Shown here in pieces: positions 16,314 to 28,491 of a DNA stretch of 64,000 bases (position 1 is its first letter; each line of letters begins with the position of its first letter). The translations under genes and the position numbers were made by a program. A model generated the notes under the pieces. It worked only from the letters and a program-made list of their open reading frames with translations, ran no database searches and was not told the DNA's origin. The stretch spans positions 1,426,001 through 1,490,000 of the forward strand of contig NZ_CP009630.1 in assembly GCF_000959445.1 (NCBI RefSeq), in the 5' to 3' direction. Source of the stretch: Burkholderia vietnamiensis LMG 10929. Lineage in GTDB: Bacteria > Pseudomonadota > Gammaproteobacteria > Burkholderiales > Burkholderiaceae.

Positions 16314-16685
16314 TCACGGCGCGGCGAAGAACAGCGCGACGACGCAGGCCATCCCGGCGAACCACACGAGCGAGCGCAGCGCCGCCCAGTCCAGCACGTA
16401 CATCAGCGCATACACGATGCGGATCGCGACGAACGCGATCGCCAGCTGGTCGACGTGATGCGCATTCGCGCCGTTGTGCCACGCGACGACGAGCCCGGCC
16501 GTAAACAGCGCGAGCGCTTCCCACGCGTTCTGGTGCGCGGCCTGCGCCCGCGCGCGCCAGCCTTCGAGCCGCGCGAGATACGCGCGCGGCGCATGGTTGT
16601 CGTAGCCCTTGCGGGCCTTCGCGAGAAACGTCATGGGGAACGGCAACAGCGCCACGATGAACAGGCACAGCTGGGACGTCGTCAT
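16314..16685 (-). CDS. MAPEG-family membrane protein
   Basis: A 123-residue, four-helix membrane protein. The pattern KARKGYDNHAPRAYLARLEGWRARAQAAHQNAWEALALF matches the MAPEG family (membrane-associated proteins in eicosanoid and glutathione metabolism), where the Asn/Glu/Arg motif in helix 2 binds glutathione in the eukaryotic enzymes. ATG 16685 is preceded by a near-perfect AAGGAGGAG. Bacterial members are mostly uncharacterised. The gene stands alone. Confidence 0.8.
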   Translation of the reverse strand: MTTSQLCLFIVALLPFPMTFLAKARKGYDNHAPRAYLARLEGWRARAQAAHQNAWEALALFTAGLVVAWHNGANAHHVDQLAIAFVAIRIVYALMYVLDWAALRSLVWFAGMACVVALFFAAP

Positions 16686-16990
16686 CAAAGTCTCCTCCTT
16701 TATGATTACATCGATCAATGACACGGTCTCGCAGAGCTTAGCATCGCGACACCCCGTTCGCGCACCGGTTTTCTAGACGGCGGACTCGGCAAGGCCGGCT
16801 GCGCGAAGTCGCGACGACCCGCCCGCGAGATCGAATATTCCACCAAATCGACGCTAAATACGTTAATTAAAACTGGCCCAACATACATAAGATAGCGATC
16901 GAAACTGGCTTGGCACGTCGCCACGCCACCCTGCCGACCCCGCGCTGCACCGTCGTGCGCGCGCCGAACGACCTTCGATCCGAACCGACC
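16686..16990. other. Divergent promoter region, MAPEG gene and alr
   Basis: A 305-bp divergent spacer. An AT-rich patch at about 16840-16905 is the likely promoter area for alr; AT-rich sequence near 16695-16720 likely serves the MAPEG gene. No defined operator is recognised. Confidence 0.4.
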
Positions 16991-18112
16991 ATGCCCCGTC
17001 CCATCGTCGCCCATATCCGTCCCGACGCCGTCCGCCACAACCTCGACTTCATCCGCCGCACCGCCGCGCACTCACGCGTGTGGGCCGTGATCAAGGCCAA
17101 TGCATATGGTCACGGGATCGAGCGGATCTATCCGGGCCTCGCGGCCGCCGACGGCATCGCGCTGCTCGATCTCGACGAAGCCGTGCGCGTGCGCGAGCTC
17201 GGCTGGGACAAGCCGGTGCTGCTGCTCGAAGGGATCTTCGAGCCGGTCGACGTCGAACTCGCCGACCGCCACCGGCTCACGGTAGCCGTGCACTGCGACG
17301 AGCAGCTCGATCTGCTGATCGCCGCGCAGCCGCAACGACCGATCGACATCCAGCTGAAGATGAACTCGGGGATGAACCGGCTCGGCTACCGTCCGCACCT
17401 GTTCCGCGCCGCGTGGGAACGCGCGGCGGCTGCACCGTCGATCGGCAACATCACGCTGATGATGCACTTCGCGAACGCCGACGAAGGCGAAGTCGCCTGG
17501 CAGCTCGACCAGTTCGATGCAGCCACGGCCGGGATCCCGGGCGAGCGTTCGACGTCGAATTCGGCCGCCGTGCTGTGGCATCCGCAGGCGCATCGCGACT
17601 GGGTGCGGCCCGGCACGATCCTGTACGGCGCATCGCCGACCGGCGCGTCGCGGCACATCGCCGATACGCCGCTGATGGCGGCGATGACGCTCACCAGCAA
17701 GATCATCGGCGTACAAACGCTCGCGCCGCAGGAAACGGTCGGCTACGGCCGCCGCTTCACGGCCGAGCAGCCGATGCGGATCGGCGTCGTCGCATGCGGC
17801 TATGCGGACGGCTATCCGCGCCACGCCCCGACCGGCACGCCGATCGCCGTCGACGGCGTGATGACGCGCGTGATCGGCCGCGTATCGATGGACATGCTGA
17901 CCGTCGATCTGACGCCGTGCCCGAACGCCGGCATCGGCTCGAGCGTCGAGCTGTGGGGCGATCAGGTGAAGGTGGACGACGTCGCGGAAGCGAGCGGCAC
18001 GATCGGCTACGAGCTGATGTGCGCACTCGCACGCCGCGTGCCGGTGGTGGTCGTGCCGCCCGGCGCGTCGGCAGCGGAGCCGGCGCTGCGCACCGGCAGC
18101 TACGGACGTTGA
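16991..18112 (+). CDS. alr: Alanine racemase
   Basis: A 373-residue fold type III PLP enzyme interconverting L- and D-alanine for peptidoglycan. The PLP Lys is K35 in [11 protein letters not shown]. Other landmarks are [13 protein letters not shown], the region with the second catalytic base Tyr ([10 protein letters not shown]), and [15 protein letters not shown]. The start at 16991 is chosen because upstream codons of the open frame lack family similarity. It has all expected residues and length. Whether this is the biosynthetic Alr or a catabolic DadX cannot be told, since no dadA or murein gene is adjacent. Confidence 0.93.
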
Positions 18113-18265
18113 CGAGCGCGGCGGCGGCGCGTTGCAGGTGCCGTCAGCGCGCCGCATACGGTTGCGGGCCGCATTGCACGCGGCGCGTGCGCGCAGCCGC
18201 CGCGTAGAGGCGCCGCGCATCGGCGAAGGCAACGCTGGCCCCGCACCGCGCCGCTCCCCTGCCCG

Positions 18266-19060
18266 CTACGAACGCCAGATCGGCTCGCGCTTCTCCAGGA
18301 ACGCGTCGATTCCCTCGCCCGCATCTTCTTCCATCATGTTGCGGGCCATCACGTCGCCCGCATACGCGTATGCATCGTCGAGCGGCAGCTCGCGCTGCCG
18401 GTAGAACATCTGCTTGCCGTAGCGCACCGCCGCCGGGCTCTTCGCGACGATCTCCGCGACCTTGCGCGCGACGGCAGCGTCGAGCGCATCCTCCGGCACG
18501 GCCTCGTTGACGAGCCCCCACGCGGCGGCCGTCGCCGCATCGACGAAGCGGCCGGTGACCAGCATGTCGAACGCGCGCTTGGCGCCCACGTTGCGGCTCA
18601 GCGCGACGGCCGGCGTCGAACAGAACAGCCCGACGTTGATCCCCGACACCGCGAAACGCGCGGTATCGGCCGCGATCGCGAGATCGCATGCGGCAACCAG
18701 CTGGCAGCCGGCCGCCGTCGCGATCCCCTGCACGCGCGCGATCACCGGCACCGGCAACGCGCGCATCGCGAGCATCACGCGGCTGCATTGCGCGAACAGC
18801 GCACGGTAGTAATCGAGTTCCGGCTTGCCGCGCATCTGCCGCAGGTCGTGGCCCGCGCAGAATGCGCGGCCTTCGGCGGCGAGCACCACGCAGCGCGCCT
18901 GCGGGTCGGCGGCGATCGAATCGAATGCCGCCTGCAGGCTCGCGAGCAGTTCCTCGGACAACGCGTTGAACTGCTGCGGACGGTTCAGCCGCAGCGTGAC
19001 GACGCCGTCACGCACGTCGTGCAACAGGATGGGTGCTGCCGAAGCGGAATTCGTATCCAT
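18266..19060 (-). CDS. Crotonase-fold protein (enoyl-CoA hydratase/isomerase family)
   Basis: A 264-residue crotonase-fold protein with the oxyanion-hole segments CAGHDLRQM and GIATAAGCQLVAACDL. The two catalytic glutamates of true enoyl-CoA hydratases appear to be absent: the first falls at Gln in AAGCQLVA and the second region reads FAVSGINVGLFCS. This pattern matches the ECHDC3-like branch, whose reaction is unknown. Start MDTNSAS at 19060 follows GGGGA. The next gene on this strand (cheY) is a separate unit starting at 19500. The hydratase label should be used with care. Confidence 0.85.
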   Translation of the reverse strand: MDTNSASAAPILLHDVRDGVVTLRLNRPQQFNALSEELLASLQAAFDSIAADPQARCVVLAAEGRAFCAGHDLRQMRGKPELDYYRALFAQCSRVMLAMRALPVPVIARVQGIATAAGCQLVAACDLAIAADTARFAVSGINVGLFCSTPAVALSRNVGAKRAFDMLVTGRFVDAATAAAWGLVNEAVPEDALDAAVARKVAEIVAKSPAAVRYGKQMFYRQRELPLDDAYAYAGDVMARNMMEEDAGEGIDAFLEKREPIWRS

Positions 19061-19134
19061 GACGTCCCCGGTTGAAATGATGTCGATGCGATCACGCATC
19101 AATATAGTCCAACGGGGAAGCCCACGCCGCGCGG

Positions 19135-19500
19135 TCAGCCCGCGAGTTTCTTCAGCGCGTCGAGCACCGCGTCGCCCTTGAACGGCTTGACGATCCAGCC
19201 CTTCACGCCGGCCGCCTTGCCGCGCTCCTTCATCGCCGGGCTGCTTTCGGTCGTCAGCATCACGACGTTGACCGACGTGTTCGCCAGTTCGCCGCGGATT
19301 TTCTCGACCATCGTCAGGCCGTCCATGTTCGGCATGTTGACGTCGCTGATCACGAGGCGCACGCCGGGCGTCGCCTTGAGCTTCGCGAGCCCGTCCTTGC
19401 CGTCCACCGCCGTCGCGACGTCGAGCCCGTGATTGCGCAGGAAGCCCGCGACTTCGTCGCGCACCGTGCCCGAATCGTCGACCACCAGAATCTTTGCCAT
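19135..19500 (-). CDS. Stand-alone CheY-type response regulator
   Basis: A 121-residue single receiver domain. Acid pocket Asp8/Asp9 (VVDDSGTVRD), phospho-acceptor Asp53 (VISDVNMPNMDG), Thr at 83/84 (MLTTES) and Lys105 (IVKPFK) are all in place, so it should be phosphorylatable. No output domain. It is the last gene of a five-gene unit with a CheA-like kinase and two CheX-like phosphatases, which makes it the probable phosphate acceptor of that kinase. It starts 38 nt after the upstream CheX-like gene. The absence of nearby flagellar genes leaves its target open. Confidence 0.92.
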   Translation of the reverse strand: MAKILVVDDSGTVRDEVAGFLRNHGLDVATAVDGKDGLAKLKATPGVRLVISDVNMPNMDGLTMVEKIRGELANTSVNVVMLTTESSPAMKERGKAAGVKGWIVKPFKGDAVLDALKKLAG

Positions 19501-19538
19501 GCTTTCTTCCCCTTTTGCGTCGTTGCCGACTTCAATGT

Positions 19539-20498
19539 TCAAAACAGTTCGAGCTCGCCCGACTCGACCATCGGCCCGACGTCGTGCACCGTTTCGCGGA
19601 AATCCTCCGGCGACCAGCTCAAGCTGAATACGAAGCGCTGATCGAGCTGCACCGCGCGGCCCGACGCGCGGTCCGTCACGCGATACTTGAAGCACAGCTG
19701 CGGGCAGTCGCCGCCGAACGAGATGAACTTCTGCTTGTGATTGACGACGAGCGGCACCTGCACCGGATGGCGCGCGAGCGCGTCGGCGTCGCCGAGATAG
19801 CGGTCCTTGAACGCGCCCCACACGAGATTCGTCAATTCGCCGAGCACGCTGTTGACGTCGCGAAAATCGGGTGCGCGGCCGTCGTCGCGCGTGCCGCCGA
19901 TCATGTCGAGCAGCGGCTGCTCGCTCGTCTGCAGCAGCATGTAGCCGCGGCACCACGCGCTTTCGAGCGCGATCAGGCTGAACACTTCGCCGAAGATGAT
20001 CTGGTCGCGCACGATGCACGGCGTGTCGCATTCGATCGCCATCCCCGGAAACAGGCCGTCGAGGCGCGCCTCGGTGATCTCCGCGATGCCGCGCACGAGC
20101 GCGTTCGGGTAATCGCGGCCGAACAGGTATTCGTCGACGGCGCGCTTGAGCGGCGTCAGGTCATCGGCGACGTAGGCCGCGCACGCGACGCGCGCGAGCG
20201 CATCGGGCAGCCCGTCGCGCGACGCATCCGCCGCGCGGCGCAGGATGATCGGCAACTCGGGGCGCAGCGCGTCGATCTGCGTCGCGACGATCGCGCTCTC
20301 GGCCGGCGAGCCGCCGTAGTCTTCGGCGAGCAGGATCGCGCCGAGATCGATGTTCGAGCGCAGCACCTGCAACAGGCGGTTGCGGCGCACGGTCAGGCCC
20401 ACGAGGTTGTGCTCGTCGCAAAAGCGCTTGATCGTCGCGGCATGCGCGCGGCTGTCGTCCAGCACGAGCACCTTGCTGACGGGTTGGTCCACGGTCAT
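19539..20498 (-). CDS. Receiver-like plus CheX-type phosphatase fusion protein
   Basis: A 319-residue protein. Residues 9-125 look like a receiver (KVLVLDDSRAHAATIKRF), but the strand that should carry the phospho-Asp reads GAILLAEDYGG, so the domain is probably degenerate or uses a shifted acid. Residues of about 130-300 resemble the CheC/CheX/FliY phosphatase fold, with the catalytic Glu-x-x-Asn motif at E221/N224 (SVLGELTNLVWGAF). It likely dephosphorylates the adjacent CheY. The last six residues, GELELF, are identical to those of the next phosphatase-like gene, down to the codons. The CheX assignment rests on the ExxN motif and fold pattern. Confidence 0.75.
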   Translation of the reverse strand: MTVDQPVSKVLVLDDSRAHAATIKRFCDEHNLVGLTVRRNRLLQVLRSNIDLGAILLAEDYGGSPAESAIVATQIDALRPELPIILRRAADASRDGLPDALARVACAAYVADDLTPLKRAVDEYLFGRDYPNALVRGIAEITEARLDGLFPGMAIECDTPCIVRDQIIFGEVFSLIALESAWCRGYMLLQTSEQPLLDMIGGTRDDGRAPDFRDVNSVLGELTNLVWGAFKDRYLGDADALARHPVQVPLVVNHKQKFISFGGDCPQLCFKYRVTDRASGRAVQLDQRFVFSLSWSPEDFRETVHDVGPMVESGELELF

Positions 20499-20520
20499 CT
20501 CGGATAATCCTCGGATTCGG

Positions 20521-21105
20521 TCAAAACAGTTCGAGCTCGCCGCCCGTGTCCACCGCAGCCGCTTCCGGCACGTGGAAATCCACCGGCGCGTTCGCGCACA
20601 CGCAGAGCGTCGCGCCGATCCGCACGTCGCCGTCGAGCGTCACGTCGTACGCGGCCGTGTGAGCGGGATGCAGCGCGGCCAGGTAATCGACGCTCTCGCC
20701 GCTCAGCAGATAAGGCGTCGACATCCCGAGATCGGGAAATGGCGCGGTGAGCGCCTGGTTGATCGCGCCGCAGCACAGGTTCGCGACTTCCATGAACGCT
20801 TCGGCCAGCGGCCGCTGCGTGCTCGCTCCGGGCGTCGTCGCGGCGAAATGACGTTGCGTCGGCGCATCGTCGCGAAAGCGCAGCGCGAGCAGCAGACGGA
20901 AATGCAAGGCCGAGATCGTCAGCACGACGACCTGCTCGCGCGCATCGGGCTTGGCGCGCCGCTGGGTGCGCGACGGATCGTCCGGTGCGCGCCCGGCATC
21001 GTGCGCGACCGGCCGGATCTCGCATGGGCCGCCGCCCGCGAGCCGCGTGCGCGCCGCATCGAAGAAGATCCGCTCGAAGCCGGCACGCGCCTGCGCACTG
21101 ATCAC
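20521..21105 (-). CDS. CheX-like phosphatase
   Basis: A 194-residue protein starting at a GTG whose first bases overlap the stop of the MCP-like gene (GTGA), with AAGGAG upstream. It has a single CheX-like domain with the ExxN motif at E106/N109 (AEAFMEVANLCCGAINQAL). A long open frame extends upstream, but it lies over the MCP-like gene and is not used. Together with the following 319-residue protein it gives the operon two different CheX-type modules. The tail GELELF is shared with that protein. It probably acts on the CheY of this operon; specificity is unknown. Confidence 0.75.
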   Translation of the reverse strand: MISAQARAGFERIFFDAARTRLAGGGPCEIRPVAHDAGRAPDDPSRTQRRAKPDAREQVVVLTISALHFRLLLALRFRDDAPTQRHFAATTPGASTQRPLAEAFMEVANLCCGAINQALTAPFPDLGMSTPYLLSGESVDYLAALHPAHTAAYDVTLDGDVRIGATLCVCANAPVDFHVPEAAAVDTGGELELF

Positions 21106-21848
21106 GCCGCCGCTCCTTCGAGCCGCGCGTGCAGTTGCGCCGCGAGCGTCTCGACGGTTGCCAGCGCGGCGGTGATCATCTTGCCGCCGGCCTGGATGTC
21201 CTGGAACGTCGCGGCCGTCACGAGGTCGTTGCGGTTCAGGCTGTCGCGATAGCTGTTCGACAATTGCTGCGAGCGCGCCGCCAGCCCGCGCACCTCGCTC
21301 GCGACGATCGAGAAGCCGCGCCCGGCCGCGCCGGCGCGCGCCGCTTCGATCGACGCGTTCAACGACACGATCGACACGTGCGCGACGATCGCCGACAGCT
21401 CCTGGTTCTTCGCGCGCATGTCCTGGTTCTGCGTGGTGAGCGAGATCATCTGCTCGTGCCAGCGCTCGAACGTGCCGGCCAGCCCGCGCAGCCGCGCGGC
21501 TTCGTCGGCGAGCTTCGTCGCGTGCTGCGACAGCGCCGCGCGCTCGGCCGCGAGCGCCTGCAGCGCGTCGCGCCGCTCGTCGGCGCCGGCCGTCTCGCGC
21601 GCCAGCGCCTGTTCGAGCTCCGCTTCCCGCTGCGTCCAGGCCAGCGCCGCCTGCGCATGCGCGGCGACGGCCGCGTCGGCACGCGCGTCGGCGGCGTTCA
21701 GCGCGTCGCGCAATGCGTGCGTTTCGCTCGCGATCGCGGCTGCGGAACGCGCGCGCAACACCCGCGCGACGATGAAGGCGATCGCCGCGGCCGCCACGCC
21801 GCCGCTCAGAGCGGCGCCGACCGGAATCATCCACGCCTGCACGTTCAC
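21102..21848 (-). CDS. Short methyl-accepting-chemotaxis-like signalling protein
   Basis: A 248-residue protein: one N-terminal membrane helix (about residues 7-32), an Ala/Glu-rich coiled coil, and an MCP hairpin tip with IVSLNASIEAARAGAAGRGFSIVASEVRGLA. There is no periplasmic ligand domain and no HAMP, and only about 55 residues follow the tip, so the return helix is short. In known systems the tip contacts CheA and CheW; here no CheW exists. The start overlaps the stop of the kinase gene (ATGA), and the stop overlaps the next start. It may be a membrane scaffold for the neighbouring CheA-like kinase. Confidence 0.85.
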   Translation of the reverse strand: MNVQAWMIPVGAALSGGVAAAAIAFIVARVLRARSAAAIASETHALRDALNAADARADAAVAAHAQAALAWTQREAELEQALARETAGADERRDALQALAAERAALSQHATKLADEAARLRGLAGTFERWHEQMISLTTQNQDMRAKNQELSAIVAHVSIVSLNASIEAARAGAAGRGFSIVASEVRGLAARSQQLSNSYRDSLNRNDLVTAATFQDIQAGGKMITAALATVETLAAQLHARLEGAAA

Positions 21849-24235
21849 TCCGCTGCGTCGACGTTCGCGATGCCGGCGCGCGCGTGCGACTCGACGTCCC
21901 GGCCGTCGCCCTCGGCCGCGAAACGCGCCGGCAGCGACACGATCGTCTCGAACGCGCGATACGACGCGCCGACGCGATCGTCGGTGAAGCGCAGCGCGAT
22001 GTCGCCGCCGTCGCGCTTCAGAAAATTGCGCACCGCGTCCATCCCGACGCCGCGCCCCGACACTTCGGTCACCGCGCGCGCGGTCGAGAAGCCCGGCCGG
22101 AAGATCAGCTCGGCCACGGCTTCATCGGTCATCGCCGCGTCGTTGCCGGCGTCGATCCAGCCGCGCTCGCGCGCGATCGCGCGGATGCGGGCGAGCGCAA
22201 GACCGCGGCCGTCGTCGCGCAGCACGAAGCGCAGCGCGTCGCCGTCGGCGGCAACCGCGATGTCGATCGTGCCGGCCACCGGCTTGCCGGCCGCGCGCCG
22301 CTCGTCGGACGTTTCGATGCCGTGGTCGAGCGCGTTGCGCAGCAGATGCATGAACACGTTCTTCAGCGTCGCGCCGATCTCGCTGCGCACGCGCTGCCCG
22401 TTGCTGTCGATATGCACGACCGGCGCGGGCTTGCCGAGCTCGGCCGCGAGCGACGGCAGCGATTCGATCACGCCGCCCAGCGCATCGCCGATCCGCTGCG
22501 TGCCGAACTGGCTCAGCAGGCGGCGCACCGAATCGCGCGCGGCGAGCCAGTCGCTCGCGTTCGCGGGATCGGCGCCGTCGAGCATGCGCAGGCTCTCGCT
22601 GATATGCGCGCGCTCAACCATCAGGTAGTCGGCGCCGTCACGCGGCACCGGCTCGCCGTCGCGGCCGAGCGTCACCGCGTTGATCGTCGCGTAATGGTCG
22701 ACCGCGTCGCGCACGCGGGCCAGGTCTTCCATCAACGCATCGCGGTTCCATTCGGGGCCGCCGTCCGCGCGGCGCAGCGATTCGTACGCCTGCTCCGCCT
22801 CGTGCACGATGTTGGTCAGGTGCTGCAGGCTGTACGTGCGCGCATTGCCCTTGATCGTGTGCATGTTGCGGAACAGCGCGGCGACGATCGAATGATCGGC
22901 GCGCTCGTGCTGGCGGATCATCCGCTCGTTTTCGCTGAGGAAGCCCTTCGCGCTGTGCACGAAGTCGTGGAACTTGTCCTGGCTGATCGACAGGATCTCG
23001 CCGATCATCTCGAGCCGGCGCTGTTGTTCGCCCGCTTGCGCGGTCAGCTCGCGAATCTCGGTCACGTCGCGCACGCACAGCATCAGCCGCACGACCGTGT
23101 CGGTGTCGTCGGTGATCGCCGACCAGCTCAGGTCGAGCCATTTCTCGCGGCCGTCCGGCATCCGCTTCGCGACTTCGTTGACGAGCAGGTGCTCGTTGAA
23201 CGCGAAGTTCATGCTGTCCTCGCCGAGACACGCGTGCACGGCCGCTTCGACCTGCGAGCGCGCGTCGGCGCCGATGCTCGAATCGTCGAACACGAGCGCC
23301 ATCAGGTCGCGGCCCGCGATGTCGTCGGTCTCGAAGATGGTTTCCAGATACGCCGAATACTCGCCGTGCACGCGCGCGCCTTCGACGACGGTCAGGATCC
23401 CCTGCTGCATGTTCTGCAGCATCGCCTGGATGTCGGCCGTCTTCTGCTTCAGCTGCGCGGCGTTCTGCTGGATCTTCTCGATCATCCCGTTGAACGCGAC
23501 GATCGAGTGACCGATCTCGTCCATCCGCCCGACCGGCACGCGCCGCGTGAAGTCCTGGCTCGTCGCGATCTCGCTCATCATCGTCTGCATCCGGCTCAGC
23601 GGGCGCGTGATCTGGCGGTACAGCACGAAGCCGAGCGCCGTCAGCAGCACGACGACCGTACCCGCGACGCCCGCGATCGCGGTCGCCGTGGTCGCCAGCA
23701 TGCCGTTCAGCGCGCTGATCGCGTCGTCCTTCTGGCGGTTCTTCTCGATGCGCAGCGTGTCGACGATCCCTTCGAGTTCGTCGCGATACTGCGCGACGTT
23801 CGCGAACAGGTACGCCTGCGCCATCTCCGCCTTGCCGTCGGCCTTCATCTTGACGGTGTCGTCGATCGCGGCGAAGTAGTTCGCGGCGCTGTCGCGCGCC
23901 TGCGCGACGAGCCCTTGCTGCGCCTGGCCGACCGCCGACTTCGCCTGCGCGTCGAGCGCGGCGCGCAGCGCCGCCTGCTTCGCCTTCAGCTCGTCGCGCG
24001 CCTGCGAGGCGGTTTGCGGGTCCGGTGCGTACACCAGCGTCATCGTCGCGATCTGGATGTTCTTCACGTCGGCGACGAGATCCGCCGACGCGAGCGCGCT
24101 CGGCACGATTCCCTGGGTAACCTGACGGACCTCGGCGGCGCTCTTGCGCGTCTGGTACACGGCGTACGCGCCGATCGAGGACAGCGCGATGAACGTCAGG
24201 ACGACTAGCAGCGTAATGCGATGACGAATGGTCAT
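21845..24235 (-). CDS. Membrane-bound CheA-like histidine kinase (HAMP-PAS-HPt-HATPase)
   Basis: A 796-residue protein. Membrane helices at about 8-27 and 182-206 flank a helical periplasmic domain (4-helix-bundle MCP type). HAMP follows at about 207-260, a PAS-like domain at 270-395, and an HPt-like helical domain with the phosphorylatable His459 in RNMHTIKGNAR. The CheA-type ATPase has the N box HLLRNALDHGIE (630-641), G1 DDGRGL (674-679) and G2 GRGVGMDAVR (727-736). The chain ends after the ATPase: the CheW-like regulatory domain of CheA is absent. It looks like receptor and CheA kinase fused into one protein, heading a five-gene operon. Signal unknown. Confidence 0.88.
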   Translation of the reverse strand: MTIRHRITLLVVLTFIALSSIGAYAVYQTRKSAAEVRQVTQGIVPSALASADLVADVKNIQIATMTLVYAPDPQTASQARDELKAKQAALRAALDAQAKSAVGQAQQGLVAQARDSAANYFAAIDDTVKMKADGKAEMAQAYLFANVAQYRDELEGIVDTLRIEKNRQKDDAISALNGMLATTATAIAGVAGTVVVLLTALGFVLYRQITRPLSRMQTMMSEIATSQDFTRRVPVGRMDEIGHSIVAFNGMIEKIQQNAAQLKQKTADIQAMLQNMQQGILTVVEGARVHGEYSAYLETIFETDDIAGRDLMALVFDDSSIGADARSQVEAAVHACLGEDSMNFAFNEHLLVNEVAKRMPDGREKWLDLSWSAITDDTDTVVRLMLCVRDVTEIRELTAQAGEQQRRLEMIGEILSISQDKFHDFVHSAKGFLSENERMIRQHERADHSIVAALFRNMHTIKGNARTYSLQHLTNIVHEAEQAYESLRRADGGPEWNRDALMEDLARVRDAVDHYATINAVTLGRDGEPVPRDGADYLMVERAHISESLRMLDGADPANASDWLAARDSVRRLLSQFGTQRIGDALGGVIESLPSLAAELGKPAPVVHIDSNGQRVRSEIGATLKNVFMHLLRNALDHGIETSDERRAAGKPVAGTIDIAVAADGDALRFVLRDDGRGLALARIRAIARERGWIDAGNDAAMTDEAVAELIFRPGFSTARAVTEVSGRGVGMDAVRNFLKRDGGDIALRFTDDRVGASYRAFETIVSLPARFAAEGDGRDVESHARAGIANVDAAE

Positions 24236-24740
24236 GAGTACAGCTCCCCGCAGCGATCCGGCTTCAATCGCCCTCTGGTCTATTGAAAGAATATGAGCGG
24301 CGAATTATCGGGGATGGTGTATGACGGTCCGATGACCGGAAATCAATGGATCGTTGATGAAATTGCAATGATTAATTGCGCAGCCGAATTCCTAAAGTTC
24401 CGACGGAATCGGCCGTTAATCGTTATCCGGCAAGGGTTCGCCATCTCCTTTCAGCGCGGCGACGGGCGAATTCGGATATTCGCTTTCCATTCGTAATTCG
24501 GCAATTCAAATGGTGTCGATTCCGGCAGAACGCCTGCAAATCGTCGAGGTCGGCTGGCTGCCGGCCGGACATTTGGCGGCAGTTTTCCGGTGGCTGATTC
24601 GCAATACGCGCGACGCAGCGCCGGCCGCGATGCCGGACGGCATTCATTCCTGTCGGGAAAGGATCAATCACCATCCGGCGGTTCACGCTGCCGGCTGCGC
24701 GGCATAGACTGTCGGATCGTTTCGCTACCGGACCCACGCG
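24236..24740. other. Divergent regulatory region of the CheA-like operon
   Basis: About 500 bp between the kinase gene and the carboxylesterase gene. The part at 24285-24500 is clearly less GC-rich than the surroundings and should contain the operon promoter. No coding frame or recognised operator is visible. Confidence 0.45.
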
Positions 24741-25430
24741 ATGACCGACGTTGCCCAGCTGACCACCGACCCCGAATCGGGCCTCCACTACCGGCTGCGC
24801 GCGGCCGTCGGCCGCCCGGCGGGCCGCCTGTTGCTGCTGCACGGCGTCGGCGGCAACGAAACCAATCTGCTGAACCTGGCCGATACGATCGACCCGCGCA
24901 TCGAAATCGCGTTCCTGCGCGCGCCGCTGGCGTTCGGGCCAGGCCAGCATGCATGGTTTCCGGTGCGCTTCGGCCCGAACGGCCCGGAAATCGACGCGGC
25001 CCGCGCCGATGCGAGCCGCCTGAAGCTGATCGCGCTGCTGCGCGCGCTACGCGCGCGCGACGCCGCGCAGCAAGCCGCCGCGTTGCCGGTCGCGATCGCC
25101 GGCTTCAGCCAGGGCGGCATCATGAGCGCGAGCGTCGCGCTCACGTCGCCGTCCGACGTCGCCGCGTTCGCGGTGCTGTGCGGGCGCATCCTGCCGGAAA
25201 TCGATCCGCTGATCGCACCGCGCGACGCGTTGAAGCCGCTGCACGCGCTGGTGATGCACGGCCGCTTCGACGACAAGCTGCCGCTCGCATGGGCCGACAC
25301 GGCCGACGCGAAGCTGACGGCGCTCGGCGTCGCGCACGACACGTGGCGCTACGACGCCGGCCACGAACTCACCGCGCAGATGGCGGCCGATTTCAGCCAA
25401 TGGATCGGTGCGCGGTTCGGCTTGAACTGA
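24741..25430 (+). CDS. Phospholipase/carboxylesterase-type alpha/beta hydrolase
   Basis: A 229-residue serine hydrolase of the carboxylesterase/thioesterase (YpfH/acyl-protein thioesterase-like) family. It has LLLLHGVGGNETNLL around the oxyanion hole, the nucleophile in GFSQGG, an Asp in GRFDDKLPL and the catalytic His in DAGHELT. It is cytoplasmic, with no signal peptide. Substrates of such enzymes are short acyl esters or thioesters. It stands alone between two minus-strand units, and no pathway link is visible. Confidence 0.88.
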   Translation: MTDVAQLTTDPESGLHYRLRAAVGRPAGRLLLLHGVGGNETNLLNLADTIDPRIEIAFLRAPLAFGPGQHAWFPVRFGPNGPEIDAARADASRLKLIALLRALRARDAAQQAAALPVAIAGFSQGGIMSASVALTSPSDVAAFAVLCGRILPEIDPLIAPRDALKPLHALVMHGRFDDKLPLAWADTADAKLTALGVAHDTWRYDAGHELTAQMAADFSQWIGARFGLN

Positions 25431-25473
25431 GCGCGGTGGGCCGGCCGGGCGCCGGCGCGCGCGGCCGGCATCG

Positions 25474-26985
25474 TCAGACGCTGCCCGCGGGATCGGCGGC
25501 GATCGGCGAGGCAGCCTGGGCCGCGGCCGCAGCAGCGGCATCGCGCGCCGCGCCGCGCTTCGCGAGCTTCCAGCCGACCACCAGCGCGAGTACGACGACC
25601 GGAATCATCGCGACGGTCCACGTGCCGCCGGGATAGTCGAACGCCATCAGCACCAGCACGCTGACCAGGAATCCGAGCGTGAGCCACGACGTGAACGGCG
25701 CGCCGGGCATCCGGAACGACACCGGGCTCAGCTCGCCGCGATCGACCGCGCGGCGGAACAGGATCTGGCACATCACGATGAAGCCCCAGGTCGTGATGAT
25801 GCCGAGCGACGCCATGTTCAGCACGATCTCGAACGCCTGCGCCGGCACGATGTAGTTCAGCGGCACGCCGAGCGCGTTGACCGCGACCGTGACGAGGATG
25901 CCGCCGTACGGCACGCCGCGCGCATTCATCCGCGACACGAAACGCGGCGCCGAGCCGCCCATCGCGAGCGAGCGCAGCACGCGCCCGGTCGAATACAGGC
26001 CCGAGTTCAGGCTCGACAGCGCGGCGGTGAGCACGACCACGTTCATCACCGTGCCGACGTACGGCACGCCGAGCTTGCTGAAGAACGTCACGAACGGGCT
26101 TTCGTGGGCGCTGTACGCGGTCCACGGCAGCAGCATCGTCAGCAGCACGACGGAGCCGACGTAGAACAGCGCGATGCGCCACATCACGCTGTTGATCGCC
26201 TTCGGCAGCACCTTGCGCGCGTCGGCGGTCTCGCCCGCGGCGACGCCGACGAGCTCGATGCTCGCATACGCGAACACGACGCCCTGCACGATCAGCACGG
26301 CCGGCAGGATGCCGTGCGGAAAGATCCCGCCGTGATCGGCGACCAGATGCAGGCCCGGCATCTGCCCGGCGACCGGATGGCCGCTCGCGAGAAACACCGC
26401 GCCGACCGCGAGGAACAGCGCGAGCGTCCCGACCTTGACGATCGAGAACCAGAATTCCATTTCGCCGAACACCTTCACGCCGATCATGTTCATCACCGAC
26501 ACGATGCCCAGCGCGCCGAGCGCGAACACCCATTGCGGCACGTCGGTGAACACCGCCCAGTACTTCATGTAGATCGCGACGGCGGTGATGTCGACGATGC
26601 CGGTGGTCGCCCAGTTCAGGTAGTACATCCAGCCCGCGACGAACGACGCGCGCTCGCCCATGAACTCGCGCGCGTACGACACGAACGAGCCGCTGGTCGG
26701 CCGGTGCATCACGAGCTCGCCGAGCGCGCGCATGATCAGGAACGCGAACGCGCCGCACACCAGGTAGACGAGCGCGAGCGCGGGCCCCGCGCTCTGCAGG
26801 CGCCCGCCCGCGCCGAGAAAGAGGCCGGTGCCGATCGCACCGCCCATCGCGATCATCTGCACGTGGCGCGGCTTGAGCTTCTGTTCATAGCCGGCCTCGT
26901 GCGACGCGAACATCGCGTCGCGCTCGGCATCGCGGGGTTGCGCGCCGCCGGTCTTGGCCGGCGCGCGCTCGCTGACGTGCTTCAT
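25474..26985 (-). CDS. ansP: Amino acid permease, probably L-asparagine transporter
   Basis: A 503-residue APC-superfamily permease with about 12 membrane helices, starting from the conserved [23 protein letters not shown] and [20 protein letters not shown]. The ATG at 26985 is chosen since upstream residues are basic and non-conserved. The sequence is of the AnsP/CycA type. It follows the aspartase gene by about 100 nt on the same strand, and an asparaginase is nearby, which supports asparagine as substrate. The spacer contains an 11-bp inverted repeat (27021-27031 with 27066-27076) that may modulate expression. Confidence 0.85.
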
Positions 26986-27084
26986 GGTGTGTCTCCGTTT
27001 CTTGATGTGTCGCGCCGCCGACGCGGCGCCGCGGGAACGGCGCACGGGCGGCCGGCGGCAGGCGCCGGCGCCGCGTGGCCGAAA

Positions 27085-28491
27085 TCAGTAAGCGCGCGGG
27101 CGGATCAGCGCTTCGGGTTGCAGCGCGTCGTCGAGTTGCGCATCGGTCATCAGCCGGTGTTCCAGCACGACCTCGCGAATCGACTTGCCGCTCTCGTGCG
27201 CCTCCTTGGCGACGGCGGTGGCGCGCTTGTAGCCGATGTACGGGTTCAGCGCGGTGGCGAGCGCGACCGAGCGCTCCATCGTGTCGCGCAGCCGCTCGGG
27301 GTTCGCGGTGATGCCGCTCACGCAGCGATCGGCGAGCGTCGTGCAGGCCGCGCTCAGATGGCCGAAGCTGCGGAACAGCGCGCTGGCGATCACCGGCTCG
27401 AACGCGTTGAGCTGCAACTGGCCGGCCTCGGCGGCGAACGTCACGGTCAGGTCGTTGCCGAACACCTCGAACGCGACCTGGTTCACGACCTCCGGAATCA
27501 CCGGGTTCACCTTGCCCGGCATGATCGACGAGCCGGCCTGCACCGGCGGCAGATTGATCTCGCCGAAGCCGGCGCGCGGGCCGCTCGACAGCAGCCGCAG
27601 GTCGTTGCAGATCTTCGACAGCTTGACGGCGATCCGCTTCAGCACGCCCGACATCTGCACGAACGCGCCGCAATCCTGCGTCGCCTCGATCAGGTTCGGC
27701 GCGGTGCTCAGGTCGAGGCCGGTGATGCGCCGCAGCGCGGCCAGCGCCTTCGCCGCATAGTCGGGATGCGCGGTGATGCCGGTGCCGATCGCGGTCGCGC
27801 CGAGGTTGATCTCGCGCATCAGCCAGCCGGCCTCCTGCAAGCGCGCGATGTCTTCGCTCACCATCACCGCATAGGTCGAGAACTCCTGGCCGAGCGTCAT
27901 CGGCACCGCGTCCTGCAACTGCGTGCGGCCGAGCTTGAGCAGATCGGCGAACGCGTCGGCCTTCTGCGCGAACGCGTCGCGCAGGTGCGCCATCGCCTCG
28001 AGCAGTTGCTCGACCGCGAAGCAGGTCGCGATGCGGATCGCGGTCGGGTAGACGTCGTTGGTGCTCTGTGCGAGGTTGACGTGCTCGTTCGGATGCAGAT
28101 GTTCGTACTGGCCGCGTGCATGCCCCATGATTTCGAGCGCGCGGTTGCAGATCACCTCGTTCGCGTTCATGTTGGTCGACGTGCCGGCCCCGCCCTGGAT
28201 GACGTCGACCACGAACTGGTCGTGCAGGCGGCCGTCGCGGATTTCGGCGCAGGCGGCGGCGATCGCGTCGCGATACGCACGCGGCAGCAGCCCGAGCTCG
28301 CAGTTCGCGTCGGCGGCCGCTTCCTTGACCGCCGCCAGCGCGACGACGAGGTACGGCAGCGACGCGATCGTGCGCCCGGAGATGTCGAAGTTCTCCTGCG
28401 CGCGCAGCGTATGGACGCCGTAGTACGCCGAGTCGGGCACGTTTCGCTGCCCTAATAGATCCGCTTCGACGCGAAAGCCGCGTTCCGTCAT
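27085..28491 (-). CDS. aspA: Aspartate ammonia-lyase
   Basis: A 468-residue member of the aspartase/fumarase superfamily, with the signature GSSIMPGKVNPVIPE on the flexible catalytic loop, plus VVDVIQGGAGTSTNMNANEV and HPNEHVNLAQSTNDVYPTA. The GTSTNMNANE segment and the length distinguish aspartase from class II fumarase reasonably well, and the neighbours (asparagine permease, asparaginase) agree. It deaminates aspartate to fumarate and ammonium in the cytoplasm. It is divergently arranged with a LysR gene that is the likely regulator. The product is complete. Confidence 0.9.
   Translation of the reverse strand: MTERGFRVEADLLGQRNVPDSAYYGVHTLRAQENFDISGRTIASLPYLVVALAAVKEAAADANCELGLLPRAYRDAIAAACAEIRDGRLHDQFVVDVIQGGAGTSTNMNANEVICNRALEIMGHARGQYEHLHPNEHVNLAQSTNDVYPTAIRIATCFAVEQLLEAMAHLRDAFAQKADAFADLLKLGRTQLQDAVPMTLGQEFSTYAVMVSEDIARLQEAGWLMREINLGATAIGTGITAHPDYAAKALAALRRITGLDLSTAPNLIEATQDCGAFVQMSGVLKRIAVKLSKICNDLRLLSSGPRAGFGEINLPPVQAGSSIMPGKVNPVIPEVVNQVAFEVFGNDLTVTFAAEAGQLQLNAFEPVIASALFRSFGHLSAACTTLADRCVSGITANPERLRDTMERSVALATALNPYIGYKRATAVAKEAHESGKSIREVVLEHRLMTDAQLDDALQPEALIRPRAY

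Follow-up and report, generated by a model that had tools for sequence, protein, structure and literature searches.

An operon for a putative CheW-independent chemosensory-type circuit in Burkholderia vietnamiensis and its flagellated relatives

A 64,000-nucleotide stretch of the Burkholderia vietnamiensis LMG 10929 genome (contig NZ_CP009630.1, positions 1,426,001 to 1,490,000; hereafter the window) carries five minus-strand genes at positions 19135-24235, which we designate K, M, X1, X2 and Y. K (21845-24235, 796 aa) encodes a membrane sensor kinase with the domain order four-helix-bundle (4HB) sensor-HAMP-PAS-HPt(P1)-P3-P4 and without P5, as assigned by Pfam, alignment, profile search and structural modelling. 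M (21102-21848, 248 aa, GTG start) encodes a miniature methyl-accepting chemotaxis protein (mini-MCP), X1 (20521-21105, 194 aa, GTG start) a CheX-fold protein with the motif E106-x-x-N109, X2 (19539-20498, 319 aa) a degenerate receiver domain joined to a CheX domain with E221-x-x-N224, and Y (19135-19500, ATG start) a single-domain CheY response regulator. This anatomy bears out the coordinates, order and strand given in a first-pass annotation of the same DNA, which had also described the first three genes as overlapping by ATGA or GTGA. Both overlaps exist and both are GTGA (K/M at 21845-21848, M/X1 at 21102-21105), with ATGA found at neither; X1 and X2 are separated by 22 bases, and X2 and Y by 38.

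Pfam matches in K comprise 4HB_MCP_1 (1.2e-11), HAMP (1.9e-9), Hpt (7.2e-7) and HATPase_c (1e-9). Residues 1-257 (23465-24235, minus strand) contain the four-helix-bundle sensor, HAMP and two hydrophobic stretches, placed from the sequence at about residues 7-24 and 184-206. Residues 276-391 (23063-23410, minus strand) form a PAS-like domain by alignment and model; its Pfam PAS match is weak (0.03), and H290, E292, Y293 and S294 are invariant in 16/16 sequences. The HPt four-helix domain at residues 419-522 (22670-22981, minus strand; Pfam, alignment, profile, model) includes His459, invariant in all 16 aligned K sequences, each of which also gives an Hpt match. Residues 542-775 (21911-22612, minus strand) were assigned by profile, model and fold search to the CheA-type P3-P4 dimerisation and ATPase core. 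A K profile matched solved CheA proteins over P1 and P3-P4 (best E 3.2e-56), with the matches stopping before P5, and matched the P3-P4 structure 4xiv at E 2.2e-48, in agreement with the fold match. The AlphaFold model of K (mean predicted local distance difference test score, pLDDT, 79) shows a predicted PAS-like fold, a four-helix HPt and a CheA-like P4; its predicted TM-score (pTM) is 0.37, so the arrangement of the domains is unreliable. CheA P3P4 and P4 entries were among the best Foldseek matches to this model, the first match being a WalK-YycH model with a TM-score of 0.16. Two observations speak against a CheA-type P3, namely that Pfam H-kinase_dim gave no match in K and that the P3 helices are short in the model.

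A CheW domain was found in none of 16 K sequences (the window K and 15 orthologues) at E 0.1, and in 58 K open reading frames (ORFs) the chain continues for only 41-78 residues past the SGRGVGM motif; a hidden P5 is thus ruled out by the missing CheW match and by the lack of space after P4. HisKA was likewise unmatched in 16/16 K sequences. The first-pass annotation had described receptor and kinase as one protein with two membrane helices, HAMP, PAS-like, HPt His459 and CheA-type ATPase domains and no CheW-like domain, naming the recovery of the latter at the C-terminus by profile search as an observation that would speak against it. That description is borne out by the domain content of K, with the helices corresponding to the hydrophobic stretches read from the sequence, and the profile search returned no CheW domain.

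The two CheX modules proposed in the same annotation were also recovered. X2 matched Pfam CheX at 1.5e-8, and its profile matched CheC/CheX structures with a best value of 3.3e-8. The window X1 matched Pfam CheX at 0.015, below the cut-off, and 13 of 17 X1 sequences matched (best 3.8e-5). The X1 model has a mean pLDDT of 85 and is confident outside one loop and the tail; its 14 structure matches at E<=0.001 were 13 CheX/CheC chains and one flagellar C-ring chain, with modest TM-scores by query of 0.42-0.55. The E-x-x-N residues are invariant in both proteins (X1 E106/N109 in 17/17, X2 E221/N224 in 16/16), and longer patterns around the motif fit 58/59 X1 and 60/61 X2 ORFs; these totals of 59 and 61, like the 44 given below for an upstream site, count loci and not independent species. 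Enzymes of the CheX type reach into CheY with an Asn and an acidic residue (PMC3035606). The receiver domain of X2 is degenerate: its phosphoacceptor position is Asp in 2/16 rows, window included, and none of the seven rows compared, that of the window among them, has the active-site Lys. The X2 of L072, which has one internal TGA, was omitted from the X2 alignment; the X2 of L060, from an assembly of about 600 contigs, likewise has one in-frame TGA. Y is an intact receiver by these measures (Pfam Response_reg, 1.4e-23), with D53, T83 and K105 invariant in 17/17 sequences.

X1 and X2 both end in the hexapeptide GELELF (20524-20541 and 19542-19559, respectively, minus strand), found by alignment, pattern scan and ORF recount. 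The strict form G-E-L-[ED]-[LF]-F is C-terminal in 54/59 X1 and 60/61 X2 ORFs, and the six variants are GMLELF, GALEMF, GTLELF, GALELF, GEMEMF and GDLELF; a looser pattern that fits all ORFs was drawn up after the variants had been seen, and the strict counts are kept separate from it. When the DNA pattern for tag plus stop codon was scanned over 13 genomes, all 22 matches were X1 or X2 ends (13 X2, 8 X1 and one lone X2 of G060), the reversed control gave 0, and five X1 were missed because they carry variants. The tag also ends X1 and X2 of the further loci L105-L107, with GALELF in the L106 X1. Two genomes have a second, lone X2 paralogue with no K, M, X1 or Y match close by (L071 in G060, L108 in G629), and both of these end in GELEFF. 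In the X1 model the tag is preceded by a linker predicted to be disordered (pLDDT <50). X1 and X2 are otherwise divergent, their profile comparison being weak (probability 65%) and carried partly by the tag itself, and the common tail suggests a common docking partner within the module. CheZ of E. coli holds CheY~P chiefly by a short helix at its C-terminus, which is flexibly tethered (PMC1447658), and Y would for this reason be the first candidate partner. In relatives, CheZ ends V-D-[DE]-L-L-[EA]-S-L-G-F in 7/8 loci, the seven in which the end was read.

M has one N-terminal hydrophobic segment (read from the sequence), a coiled coil and an MCP hairpin tip, and matches Pfam MCPsignal at 1e-14, as do 17/17 members of its family. 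For comparison, the genome encodes 24 other MCPs, of which three were left unparsed and 21 were compared. All 21 have FQTNIL at the tip versus AHVSIV in M, and 109-244 residues follow the tip motif in them versus 58 in M. Beyond its tip M has a conserved patch, N207-D208 ... T214-F-Q-D-I-Q-A220, in which N207, D208, T214, F215, Q216 and Q219 are invariant and the FQD motif occupies residues 215-217 (21198-21206, minus strand; alignment); TFQ[DQ][ILM]QA is present in 59/59 M ORFs. FQD is absent from the 21 parsed MCPs between 40 residues before and 70 after the tip motif. The M profile matched 13 MCP-type structures, the match ending by residue 201 in 11 of them and extending to 220 and 240 in the remaining pair. 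FQD is the sole feature that M shares with CheZ (the CheZ stretch of relatives reads DFQDLTGQ), and homology is not claimed: neither the 25 families shown of 158 (E<=10) nor the 58 structures (E<=1) included CheZ, and M was rejected as a CheZ homologue.

Scanning genome contigs with X2 gave 48 loci, from Burkholderia, Trinickia, Caballeronia, Paraburkholderia and one uncultured betaproteobacterium, and the order K-M-X1-X2-Y is kept in 47 of them. Because the order recurs in this way, the five-gene set is a real unit beyond chance, and the gene order that the first-pass annotation had proposed to look for in other Burkholderia and Proteobacteria is found both in these relatives and in further genera. 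In L049 (Caballeronia sordidicola), X2 is intact, X1 and Y survive as pieces, and neither K nor M was matched in the stretch fetched; the operon seems to be decaying. Among 399 genomes sampled from the order, 13 (10/158 genera) have X2, with M, X1 and Y beside it in 13/13; seven have the main order with K, three K-X2-Y-M-X1 and two M-X1-X2-Y-K, and the thirteenth has M-X1-X2-Y with merely a weak piece of K at the contig end. The loci of the two genome scans partly overlap (the upstream site sequence of L080 is that of L048). Three further strong cases (G405, G629 and G635) and a marginal X2 match in G747 (9.2e-4) came from a class sample of 369 genomes, and a phylum sample of 398 genomes added weak partial matches alone. 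G405 and G629 keep the main order. G635 (L106, L142, L143) has M-X1-X2-Y without an adjoining K and two K homologues elsewhere in the genome, whose open frames (1097 and 1093 aa) end after P4, the search showing one stop inside each match. Across these samples, 16 genomes in 13 genera bear the system; among them are two alternative orders, a K truncated at a contig end and a genome whose K is unlinked. In distant loci the N-terminal sensors of K differ (e.g. GAF domains in two) and the PAS-HPt-kinase part is retained. At least 1684 proteins in a large protein database match X2 at E<=0.001 (7997 candidates scored); among the 120 listed, the names, where given, are mostly 'chemotaxis protein CheX' or 'hypothetical protein'.

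The region upstream of K contains two conserved elements. The FliA/sigma-28 consensus is TAAAG-N14-GCCGWTAA, and the window has one exact site, TAAAGTTC-N11-GCCGTTAA at 24393-24419 on the plus strand (pattern match), against 0 in 100 shuffles. With at most one mismatch, 44 of the 48 loci (38 exact) carry a sigma-28-type site at a distance of 156-224 bases upstream of K, always on the strand opposite K; both boxes are kept and the spacer is free. Most loci of Burkholderia, Caballeronia and Paraburkholderia thus conserve it, and it is absent from L037, L042, L049 and L051. L080 and L081 have the site at the same place, and the 1.08 Mb scanned holds just three sites besides these. Seven flagellin upstream stretches were read: that of L148 has the exact sigma-28 form, those of L149 and L152 come near it, and the one of the same genus reads, by eye, TAAAGTTT...GCCGTCAA. 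The gene beyond the site varies between loci, as judged from crude ORF calls, and is a carboxylesterase-type hydrolase in the window, and the sequence after the site is mostly unconserved; the site therefore belongs to the K region. A conserved small RNA or gene after it was looked for and set aside, no long conserved stretch being seen in 15 aligned loci. As a promoter of K the site is ruled out by its orientation. The second element, GTCATCGGAC-GTCATA-...-CCCGATAAT, is conserved nearer K, at about 24303-24340 on the minus strand, with GTCAT directly repeated at a spacing of 11 bases, and CCCGATAAT; it is possibly an activator site and promoter for K. CCGATAA follows the GTCAT repeat in 17/18 Burkholderia and Trinickia rows, and is found at that place in 0/10 other rows. 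Beyond the sigma-28-type site, a AAAACGTTTGCG-like palindrome is conserved upstream of K in many Burkholderia loci; we take it to resemble LacI-family operators.

Flagellin is encoded in all 16 carriers tested (12/12 other genomes of the order sample, the own genome and 3/3 class genomes), compared with 273/399 genomes and 118/158 genera in the order sample as a whole. For the 13/13 carriers within the order sample, the hypergeometric probability is 0.0066, uncorrected for kinship. CheZ is present in 15/16 carrier genomes, and CheW is encoded in 12/12 other order carriers and in the own genome; the carriers thus have ordinary chemotaxis parts too, and none without flagella or without CheW was seen among the genomes tested. 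The first-pass annotation had stated that no cheW, cheR, cheB or flagellar gene is nearby: a CheW profile search of the own genome (6.93 Mb) gave six matches, none inside the window, and all six flanking genes examined, at 16314-19102 and 24741-28491, belong to metabolism or transport (MAPEG, alanine racemase, enoyl-CoA hydratase, carboxylesterase, amino acid permease, lyase). For cheR, cheB and flagellar genes the statement holds for these six nearest genes, the rest of the window being unscanned; cheR and cheB are also not among the shared neighbours of 16 diverse loci. Conserved linkage to a flagellar chemotaxis cluster, which the annotation had named as an observation that would speak against it, was not seen, as no flagellar or che gene is common to the neighbourhoods of the 16 loci, except for ordinary MCP genes, which in three (L069, L075 and L107) lie a few kb or less from the operon. 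Nor was a sixth conserved output gene found: the sole ORF group in more than two of the 16 loci consists of ABC-transporter ATPases (five loci, variable placement), and the others are pairs.

We consider it probable that the five genes encode an autonomous, CheW-independent chemosensory-type kinase-CheY-CheX circuit in flagellated bacteria, one that probably acts on flagellar behaviour. In this model, signals would be sensed by the membrane four-helix-bundle, HAMP and PAS domains of K itself, and K would autophosphorylate His459 of its internal HPt via the CheA-type P3-P4 core. The phosphoryl group would then pass from K to Y, and Y~P would be dephosphorylated by X1 and X2 through the E-x-x-N mechanism of CheX. 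The GELELF tag may dock both phosphatases on one partner of the module, most likely Y, in the manner of the CheZ C-terminal helix, with M or K as alternatives. M would be a membrane-anchored helical hairpin that serves as a scaffold or regulator without CheW. The gene set, domain content, absent P5, conserved active residues, tag, flagellin co-occurrence and upstream sigma-28-type element are read from sequence and models; phosphotransfer, dephosphorylation, the tag partner, the role of M and the output are what we infer from them.

Several observations weigh against this model. Y shares just 42% identity with a relative's flagellar CheY; the flagellin association is modest when counted by genus (10/10 versus 118/158, hypergeometric 0.049, again uncorrected for kinship); the sigma-28-type site is directed away from K and is near the operon in 0/14 more distant loci (four of them without K or an upstream stretch); the tag resembles the CheZ tail in composition alone; M retains a recognisable MCP tip; and CheW in the carriers may act in trans. 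The same circuit might instead have a non-motility output (biofilm, gene expression or a second messenger), as the first-pass annotation thought probable, with flagella merely marking a motile, versatile lifestyle. We regard this as a tentative possibility: a flagellar gene is never a shared neighbour, the divergence of Y from the flagellar CheY and the presence of CheZ in nearly all carriers fit it, and in Comamonas a chemosensory pathway, Flm, reportedly controls biofilm (PMC8880074, PMC6391922). A linked output gene is likewise absent, however, and the presence of flagellin in every carrier, together with the sigma-28-type site conserved upstream of K, points to the flagellar regulon. On these genomic grounds the annotation's non-taxis output is not supported, and a flagellar role appears somewhat favoured over it. 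The annotation had also overlooked the C-terminal tag of X1 and X2, the degenerate receiver of X2, the non-MCP patch of M and the sigma-28 element.

The flagellar link would be accidental if the sigma-28-type element served an unrelated outward transcript or a neighbouring gene, which we think somewhat unlikely. Its direction, the mostly unconserved sequence after it and the hydrolase gene next on that strand in the window are as this explanation would have it, but the far-side neighbour varies by species while the distance to K holds, and the site therefore travels with the K operon. It is still less probable that the module joins canonical arrays, the tip of M recruiting CheW or CheA encoded elsewhere, or K or Y cross-talking with the main chemotaxis pathway. 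The MCPsignal match of every M sequence and the CheW genes of the order carriers are compatible with this, yet M is without the FQTN of the parsed MCPs and is much shorter after the tip, and K has no P5 with which to join a CheW ring. A bolder form of the favoured circuit would give the flagellar machinery a second input that is free of CheW, namely an array-bypassing receptor-kinase under flagellar regulation, with two phosphatases tag-tethered to one target and a mini-MCP turned scaffold or, through its FQD patch, third CheZ-like phosphatase; we judge it unlikely, though a shade less so than entry into canonical arrays.

The system may be undescribed so far: no description of the five genes was found in the titles and abstract openings covered, subscription papers being mostly outside that coverage. 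A root-exudate paper (PMC5789663) was considered and rejected as a description, its lone mention of CheX, in the part available, concerning a Rhizobium operon. What is new here is the shared C-terminal tag, as read from the X1 and X2 sequences. K resembles CheA kinases in its HPt with the catalytic His and its P3-P4 core (profile and fold matches) and differs in lacking the P5/CheW domain and in uniting membrane sensor, HAMP and PAS in one chain. A survey of 13,673 CheA sequences reports a CheW domain in 100% (PMC10782961), although its collection step may presuppose the domain. Without a CheW domain, K would not count as a CheA in that sense, and its core is nonetheless CheA-like. As P5 ties CheA to receptor arrays, a kinase family with a CheA core, its own sensor and no P5 tests the need for array control.

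X1 and X2 share the fold and E-x-x-N motif of CheX/CheC phosphatases, and differ from them in occurring as two per operon with a common C-terminal tag, X2 being fused to a degenerate receiver. Like CheZ, they are putative phosphatases with an acidic-hydrophobic C-terminal tail that ends in F, and the FQD motif of CheZ recurs in M; unlike CheZ, X1 and X2 have a CheX fold and a shorter tag, and M has no CheZ match among the families and structures shown. M has the hairpin tip and MCPsignal profile of MCP signalling domains, but is short and without an extracytoplasmic sensor, with an altered tip and an extra conserved patch after it. Membrane PAS/HAMP histidine-kinase two-component systems likewise combine sensor and kinase in one chain with a dedicated response regulator, whereas K has an HPt and a CheA-type ATPase without HisKA, and its partners are a single-domain CheY and CheX-type proteins; from the canonical chemosensory pathway the operon differs in that the window has no linked cheW. 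The genes occur in many Burkholderia, Caballeronia and Paraburkholderia genomes, and the shared tag offers a direct handle on how phosphatases may be targeted to a response regulator.

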